From Phorcus lineatus (Eukaryota > Mollusca > Gastropoda > Trochida > Trochidae), in contig OV121092.1 of NCBI GenBank assembly GCA_921293015.1, positions 28,435,264 through 28,499,263 of the forward strand: 64,000 nt of DNA, in the 5' to 3' direction. The notes under the pieces are model-generated. The model saw only the letters and a list, made by a program, of their open reading frames with translations. It searched no databases and had not been told where the DNA came from. Made by a program: the position numbers and the translations under genes. Position 1 is the first letter of the stretch. Every line of letters starts with the position of its first letter. Below are positions 42,351 to 45,300 of this stretch, one piece after another.

Positions 42351-45300
42351 TTAATATTCGAGATCTTCTTCCTCATCGTCAATTGAATTAACTCCAACCT
42401 CCTCGTAGTCCTTCTCCAGGGCTGCCAGATCCTCACGGGCCTCGGAGAACTCTCCCTCCTCCATACCCTCACCAACATACCAGTGGACGAAGGCACGCTT
42501 GGCGTACATCAGATCGAACTTGTGGTCAAGACGAGCCCATGTTTCTGCAATTGCAGTTGTATTTGCTAACATGCAGACAGCTCTCTGCACCTTGGCCAAG
42601 TCACCACCAGGGACAACAGTTGGTGGCTGGTAGTTGATGCCGACCTTGAATCCAGTTGGACACCAGTCGACGAACTGGATGGTCCTCTTGGTCTTTAATT
42701 GGCCTATGGCCGTGTTGACATCCTTAGGGACGACGTCACCACGGTACAACATGCAGCAAGCCATGTACTTGCCGTGACGGGGATCACACTTCACCATCTG
42801 GTTGTTTGGCTCGAAGCAAGCATTGGTGATCTCAGAAACGGTGAGTTGCTCATGGTAGGCCTTTTCAGCAGAGATGACAGGGGCATAGGTAGCCAGAGGG
42901 AAATGGATACGTGGGTAGGGCACCAAGTTGGTCTGGAACTCAGTCAAATCCACATTCAGCGATCCGTCGAAGCGGAGAGATGCAGTTATTGAGCTGACGA
43001 TCTGGCCAATCAGACGGTTCAGGTTGGTGTAGGTTGGTCGCGAAATATCAAGATTTCTCTTACAAACGTCATAGATGGCCTCGTTGTCGACCATGAAAGC
43101 AACATCAGAGTGCTCCAGGGTGGTGTGGGTGGTCAGGATGGAGTTGTAGGGCTCCACAACTGCTGTAGAAACCTGAGGAGCAGGGTAGACAGCGAATTCA
43201 AGCTTGGACTTCTTGCCGTAGTCCACAGACAGTCGCTCCAGGAGCAAAGCATTGAAGCCAGATCCGGTTCCGCCTCCAAAACTGTGGAAAATGAGGAAGC
43301 CCTGGAGTCCAGAGCACTGCTCAGCCATTTTCTCAATCTTCTCCAAGGAATAGTCAATCATCTCTTTGCCGATGGTGTAGTGACCACGGGCGTAGTTGTT
43401 GGCGGCGTCCTCCTTGCCGCTGACGAGTTGATTGGGATGAAACAGCTGGCGATAGGTTCCGGTTCGGACCTCATCTGAATTACATGATAATTTCATATTG
43501 TATACAAATGAAAAAGTACAATTCAAAGAAGAGGGGTGGTGATTTTATAAGATTGAACAAAGAACCTGAGAAAATAAATAGCTACTTCTGAAAATTTAAA
43601 TCCCTGGAAAATAAGACAATTTCGCACTTCGGAAACATTCTGCATTCAGGTTCTGTTGAATCGATGACATTCACATCAAAATAAATATTTGAAAGGCTAT
43701 TTAGTGTGTTAGACATTTTCTATCATTCGTAAATGAATTGTGATTTTTCGACAAAGATTGAACCAACAAATTTTTTCAATTTTTCAACTGTAACAATGTT
43801 GCACCGAACCTGAGGAATCGATAAACAATATTTAGAGGACAATCTTAGAAAAACGCCCGTTAATCAACCAATTAAAATAATTAGCATTGCCCTTGTCGTA
43901 ATTGCAACTCTATGACTACGGAGATGGAGAGGCAATTTACAATGTTGAGTATCTTTCAATAGATAACTTTCATAAAATGTTCACCTATAACACTTTCATA
44001 AATTTCACTACAACACTTTCATAATTTTCACCTATAACACTTTCATAATTTTCACCTAAAACACTTTCATAAATGTTCACCTATAACACTTTCATAAATG
44101 TTCACCTATAACACCTTCATAATATTCACCTATAATACTTTCATAAATATTCACCTATAATACTTTCATAAATGTTCACCTAAAACACTTTTATAAATTT
44201 CACTATAACACTTTCATAATTTTCACCTATAACACTTTCATAATTTTCACCTAAAACACTTTCATAAATGTTCACCTATAACACTTTCATAAATGTTCAC
44301 TTAATACACAATTTACAATGTTGAGTATCTTTCAATAGATAACTTTCATAAAATGTTCACCTATAACACTTTCATAAATTTCACTACAACACTTTCATAA
44401 TTTTCACCTATAACACTTTCATAATTTTCACCTAAAACACTTTCATAAATGTTCACCTATAACACTTTCATAAATGTTCACCTATAACACCTTCATAATA
44501 TTCACCTATAATACTTTCATAAATATTCACCTATAACACTTTCATAAATGTTCACCTAAAACACTTTTATAAATTTCACTATAACACTTTCATAATTTTC
44601 ACCTATAACACTTTCATAATTTTCACCTAAAACACTTTCATAAATGTTCACCTATAACACTTTCATAAATGTTCACCTAATACACTTTCATAAATATTCA
44701 CCTATAACACTTTCATAAATGTTTACCTAATACACTTTCATAAATGTTCACCTATAACACTCTCATGAATTTCACCTATAACACTTTCATAATTTTCACC
44801 TATAACACTTTCATGAATGTTCATCTAAAACACTTTCATAAATGTTCACCTATAAAACTTTCATAATATTCACCTATAAAATTTTATAAATGTTCACCTA
44901 TAACACTTTCATAAATAATCACCTAAAACACTTTCATAAATGTTCACCTATAACACTTTCATAATATTCACCTATAACACTTTCATAAATATTCACCTAT
45001 AACACTTTCATAAATGTTCACCTAAAACACTTTTATAAATGTTCACCTAAAACACTTTCATAAATGTTCACCTAAAACACTTTCATGAAATGTTCACCTA
45101 AAACACTTTCAAAAAATTTTCACCTAAAACACTTTTATAAATGTTCACCTATAACGCTTGGCTCGAGGTCAATGAAAATAGCCCTGGGGACATGTTTGCC
45201 TGCCCCGGTCTCGCTGAAGAAAGTGTTGAAGGAATCGTCTCCATAACCAACTGTCTTGTCCGAGGGCATCTGACCATCAGGCTGGATTCCGTGCTCCAGA

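Follow-up and report, generated by a model that had tools for sequence, protein, structure and literature searches.

A minisatellite in an alpha-tubulin gene that appears to have been seeded by its own exon 2-intron 2 junction

The window analyzed here, a continuous stretch of 64,000 nucleotides, harbors three alpha-tubulin genes. Gene 1 (28841-30424) and gene 2 (35631-37181) lie on the forward strand, each as a two-exon frame open to its stop codon, and gene 3 (exons at 45371-45149 and 43474-42351) is read from the reverse strand, also with a frame open to the stop. In alpha-tubulins an Arg codon directly follows the initiator Met; the coordinates of all three genes start at this Arg codon, and the Met exons lie outside them. 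Exon 2 of gene 3 (45149..45371, reverse strand) encodes RECISIH...DLEPSVI followed by one G, and makes one open frame with exon 3 (42351..43474, reverse strand), which extends to the stop codon and matches the Pfam families Tubulin and Tubulin_C. Between them lies intron 2 (43475..45148, reverse strand), a phase 1 intron of 1674 nt with donor G+1 at 45148 and an acceptor AG ending at 43475. The homologous introns of gene 1 (29064..29294, forward strand; donor TTG|GTAAGT) and gene 2 (35854..36051, forward strand; donor TTG|GTAATT) measure 231 nt and 198 nt, respectively, and no array was found in either of them by TRF. These coordinates, strands and intron lengths agree with those of the initial annotation. 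The intron is placed after Val-Ile codons (Val-Val in gene 2) and in the identical phase in genes 1, 2 and 3, and exons 2 and 3 together form a single open frame to the stop in all three genes. Over the first 440 codons, pairwise dN among the three genes ranges from 0.068 to 0.080 and dS from 0.673 to 0.870, gene 3 displaying a dN/dS of 0.09 relative to gene 1 and of 0.12 relative to gene 2. Based on these two ratios and on the intact frame across exons 2 and 3, gene 3 is presumably under purifying selection and spliced well enough to function.

A tandem array of ~25-bp units was delineated by TRF at 43966..45159 on the reverse strand, in which a total of 47 junctions was counted, corresponding to the true donor and 46 copies. 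Judging from the coordinates, intron 2 would be ~500 nt long without its 46 copies. The initial annotation had described a row of about 50 donor-like sites between 43933 and 45149; the long row of donors stands, with an exact count of 47 junctions, and the left limit has been revised as it took in a 35-bp non-repeat flank that was duplicated together with the array. Successive junctions are most often 25 nt (24 times) or 24 nt (15 times) apart, the other steps measuring 23 nt (four times), 26 nt (twice) and 60 nt (once). TAG|GT occurs at 41 of the 47 junctions if the true donor is included (40/46 copies), and GT is kept at 46 of them (45/46 copies), the single loss reading AGATGA. Among the 47 junction 9-mers, TAGGTGAAC is found 20 times, TAGGTGAAA 11 times, TAGGTGAAT eight times, and TAGGTGATT and TAGGTAAAC once each; the others are TA|GT with one base lost (four times), TAA|GT (once) and one without GT. 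The GTGAA of the donor is among the best conserved parts of the unit (98-100% of the 46 copies), and a TTAT tract in alignment columns 21-24 is nearly as conserved (93-100%). Searching the window with the 25-mer unit, allowing up to three mismatches, yielded 25 matches, all of them inside the array, and none in 100 shuffles. A block duplication detected by TRF with a period of 376 encompasses the 60-nt step as well as the array's downstream end; its downstream copy, including the 35-bp flank, occupies 43934..44309 and its upstream copy 44310..44685 (reverse strand; the limits of the latter are those of the stretches compared). The two 376-bp blocks are 99.47% identical, with two mismatches, which suggests from the sequence that the array has changed recently and which makes the unit copies not independent of one another.

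The array overlaps exon 2, since its edge at 45159 is base -11 of the exon, whose last base is 45149. Both the TRF edge and the match to the unit thus assign the last 11 bases of the exon, AAGCGTTATAG (45149..45159, reverse strand), to the first unit, of which they form the exonic portion. They are identical to AAGTGTTATAG, the commonest version of the corresponding unit part (18/46 copies, followed by AAGTGTTTTAG in 13/46), at 10 of 11 positions, and the lone difference, AGC in the exon and AGT in the unit, is synonymous, both codons specifying Ser. One 25-base unit consists of 11 exon and 14 intron bases, AAGCGTTATAG|GTGAACATTTATAA, and is directly adjoined by the next, the first copies following at 25 and 26 nt in register with the exon. 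Read in the frame of the exon, 19 of the 46 copies spell Ser-Val-Ile, 15 spell Ser-Val-Leu and the remaining 12 neither of the two. The exon resembles the unit in a patchy manner upstream of -11, as chance would give: the exon's base recurs in 39/46 copies at -15, in 32/46 at -18 and in 20/46 at -20, in a single copy each at -16 and -19, and in none at -12, -13, -14 and -17. All 46 copies likewise differ from the exon at -8, and the five units adjoining the first one belong to the TTTTAG type, which the exon does not share. In genes 1 and 2, neither the end of exon 2 nor the start of the intron resembles the unit.

The strength of the repeated donors was predicted from their RNA duplex energy with the U1 5′ end and from a donor frequency table. 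On the first measure, the true donor of gene 3 reached -6.8 kcal/mol, the donor of gene 1 -9.1 and that of gene 2 -5.1. Pairing energies equal to that of the true donor were predicted for 38 of the 46 copies, and the frequency table gave 29 of the 46 a score matching or exceeding that of the true donor. Every other GT of exon 2 and intron 2 scored lower on the table than the true donor, and a better duplex energy (-7.7) was computed for a single GT out of the 128 others, at 43809. By U1 pairing and by the frequency table, most copies are thus predicted to match the real site as donors, and the scoring of the units, which had been put forward as a possible refutation of a row of donors, turned out in its favor. 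The idea that units of the TATAG and TTTAG types may differ in strength was not borne out by these scores, which are equal because the two types differ at -4, outside the scored bases. Splicing from a downstream junction would yield ...PSVIGEHL and then a stop at the identical codon for all 46 copies (the one without GT included), since the frame runs into a TAA that starts at base 12 of the intron; by length alone, the frame would be kept at 17 of the 46. The initial expectation of frame breaks or stops for most units was therefore right as to the stops and too low as to their number, given that all 46 add one. For the same reason, that each downstream site adds the identical stop, the tolerance of variable retention of units that had been envisaged looks unlikely. 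As the gene appears intact and under purifying selection, and the later junctions bring in an in-frame stop, most splicing presumably starts from the first junction. The locus is a test case, provided by nature, of how a 5′ splice site is chosen: 46 rivals, 38 of them with equal predicted U1 pairing, lie within 1.2 kb, and use of a rival donor would show as the fixed stop.

A search of the 957.8-Mb assembly (74 contigs) with one unit 23-mer, TTATAGGTGAACATTTATGAAAG, returned nine matches, all of them in the gene 3 array, and none for the control; the search covered exact matches to this one 23-mer, and diverged relatives may exist elsewhere. By the same search, no copies were found at other loci, such as would characterize a dispersed satellite or a transposon-borne minisatellite. 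Because the end of the exon matches the unit and the 23-mer occurs only in the array, the best reading of the locus is a birth from the splice junction: very probably, the array is a mirage, i.e., a minisatellite spanning an exon-intron boundary, that arose through tandem duplication of ~25 bp spanning the junction between exon 2 and intron 2 in gene 3 and then grew. That the junction was the seed of the expansion, as the initial annotation had it, is well supported by an array that is continuous and in register with 11 exon bases. The seed would have been a ~25-bp segment of 11 exon and 14 intron bases, the direction of copying probably running from exon to array, and slippage or unequal exchange, including the recent duplication of the 376-bp block, would have enlarged the array thereafter. 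The first junction would remain the normally used donor, probably selected among near-identical sites by exon definition, through the sequence context of exon 2, while the copies would be removed with the intron as near-neutral filler, and mis-spliced messages would be destroyed by nonsense-mediated decay. Read in this way, the gene 3 array would illustrate a means by which an existing intron is lengthened out of its own donor.

Alternatively, the array may have been born inside the intron, or elsewhere, and later have overwritten the edge of the exon by conversion to its own synonymous codons (GTT ATA). Consistent with such an event, Ile is encoded by ATA less often than by either other codon in genes 1, 2 and 3 (4/25, 1/21 and 3/24, respectively), and exon 2 of genes 1 and 2 ends in other codons. 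Conversion, however, would require an unrelated unit to have spelled Ser-Val-Ile in the frame of the exon by chance, the probability of which is 4e-4 for a random 9-mer of the array's composition, and the exact unit 23-mer was not found outside the array in the genome search; we consider it quite unlikely. That an ordinary intronic minisatellite merely happens to abut the exon, the likeness between the two being nothing but their shared donor consensus, is extremely unlikely. The match takes in the exon from base -11 to its last base, -1, and is not confined to G|GT, and TRF carries the array into the exon. The unit consensus equals the last 12 exon bases, in phase, at 10/12 positions, and among 125,438 12-mers taken from the two strands of the window outside the array region, a fraction of 9.6e-5 attains a match of at least 10/12 to this consensus (the figures are for the window, not the genome). 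None of the window's 1233 remaining G|GT sites is as unit-like as the end of the exon, the best of them reaching 9/12. These results outweigh the two observations that speak for coincidence, namely that minisatellites are common in the window and that the likeness is patchy upstream of -11.

Two further readings concern what the array may do rather than where it came from. The strong conservation of GTGAA and the identical stop yielded by each downstream junction might indicate that the array is maintained by selection, whether to provide a store of U1 sites or to act as a regulated switch that yields a truncated, decay-prone message. TTAT is nearly as well kept, however, and the copies, owing to the 376-bp duplication, are not independent witnesses of conservation; such selection is therefore very unlikely from the sequence, and selection for donor strength was rejected on the same two grounds and on the equality of TATAG and TTTAG units on the scored bases. 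As most units carry AG|GTGAA, the junctions might also serve as ratchet points, splicing of the true donor to the AG of a unit rebuilding a donor, so that the array would be removed stepwise and errors would repair themselves. Were this the case, the gene would amount to a natural experiment in finding the first of 47 near-identical donors. With 40 of 41 AG sites of the array scoring below the frame-required acceptor in a simple acceptor model, recursive splicing of this type was rejected and appears highly improbable.

Seen as a product of the splice junction, the gene 3 array would belong, on its sequence features, to a known kind, the mirages, with a short unit and many copies. It is a tandem minisatellite, its boundary-spanning unit includes exon bases, and the splice signals are kept. 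Amphioxus, the group in which we find the closest likeness, has genomes of ~0.5 Gb, smaller than the 957.8-Mb assembly, that are also GC-richer than the window, where GC content lies between 30 and 40% in 29 of 32 2-kb bins; the host is therefore more probably another animal, perhaps a mollusc. Mirages are described in amphioxus Adh3 and in the globin genes BflGb6 and BflGb9 (PMC3087553), to which TnC and PGBD5 are added in PMC3902484, both papers pointing to Canestro et al. 2002 as the founding report. In these accounts normal splicing is reportedly undisturbed and many units carry AG/GT signals; the units measure 10-72 bp in Adh3, 150-160 bp in BflGb6 and 157 bp in BflGb9, and the BflGb6 mirage has six and three units in two haplotypes (PMC3087553, PMC3902484). 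As far as these descriptions go, the gene 3 array shares with the amphioxus mirages the tandem copies across an exon-intron boundary and the splice signals within units, and differs from them in its location in an alpha-tubulin gene and in having 46 added copies of ~25 bp with an 11-bp exon part. If the host is not a lancelet, this would suggest that boundary-seeded minisatellites are not confined to lancelets and would extend the range over which mirages are known.

Tandem duplications involving splice signals are also cited in PMC4974935 as a source of new introns through AGGT duplication (Rogers 1989, Hellsten 2011), along with 24-bp repeats in fission yeast (Zhu & Niu 2013) and a duplication across an intron-exon boundary in potato. 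As in the gene 3 array, the repeated segments of these cases carry splice signals, and the fission yeast unit, at 24 bp, is of similar length. In contrast to intron gain, which takes place at an ancestrally intronless site, the gene 3 array lengthened an existing intron and made none, since an intron occupies this codon, in this phase, in genes 1 and 2 as well; intron gain by AGGT duplication was therefore rejected. The human internal tandem repeats described at exon-intron boundaries in segmental duplications (PMC2812944) resemble the gene 3 array in being minisatellites at boundaries that alter the structure of a paralogue. In that description, however, they modified exons or created novel introns, with 30-bp units and four repeats on average. 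Three other candidates were not retained as precedents. The Sparus aurata myostatin-2 repeats are discussed in terms of polymorphism in an intron rather than of a repeated donor (PMC3045353), and the earthworm metallothionein intron-1 minisatellites in terms of intron-internal repeats, again rather than of a repeated donor (PMC12783039); the third candidate was a set of intronic minisatellites in C. elegans with a link to alternative splicing (PMC4039745). Beyond lancelets, human segmental duplications, fission yeast and potato, no boundary-spanning arrays were recognized in listings from the open-licence literature.

Several other minisatellites or larger tandem repeats are present in the window, at 6709-7142 (22-bp unit), 10624-11471 (129 bp), 20844-21561 (356 bp), 40490-40921 (44 bp) and 49829-50128 (32 bp), beside which the list of open frames contains no exons; the 22-bp unit of the first contains GAG|GTAGT. 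Within intron 2 of gene 3, two sites on the reverse strand, TTTTCCAG|G at 43603 and TTTTCTCAG|G at 43565, obtained acceptor scores of 7.3 and 7.4, respectively, versus 0.1 for the frame-required acceptor, in a simple model. Intron 1 of the same gene harbors, on the opposite strand and starting 109 bp from exon 2, a LINE-like open frame of 902 amino acids (45480-48188, forward strand) that matches Pfam RVT_1 with an E value of 1.2e-38 and no other family at an E value of 0.001. Finally, a perfect (CT)65 run lies upstream of gene 3 exon 2, at 48296-48425.
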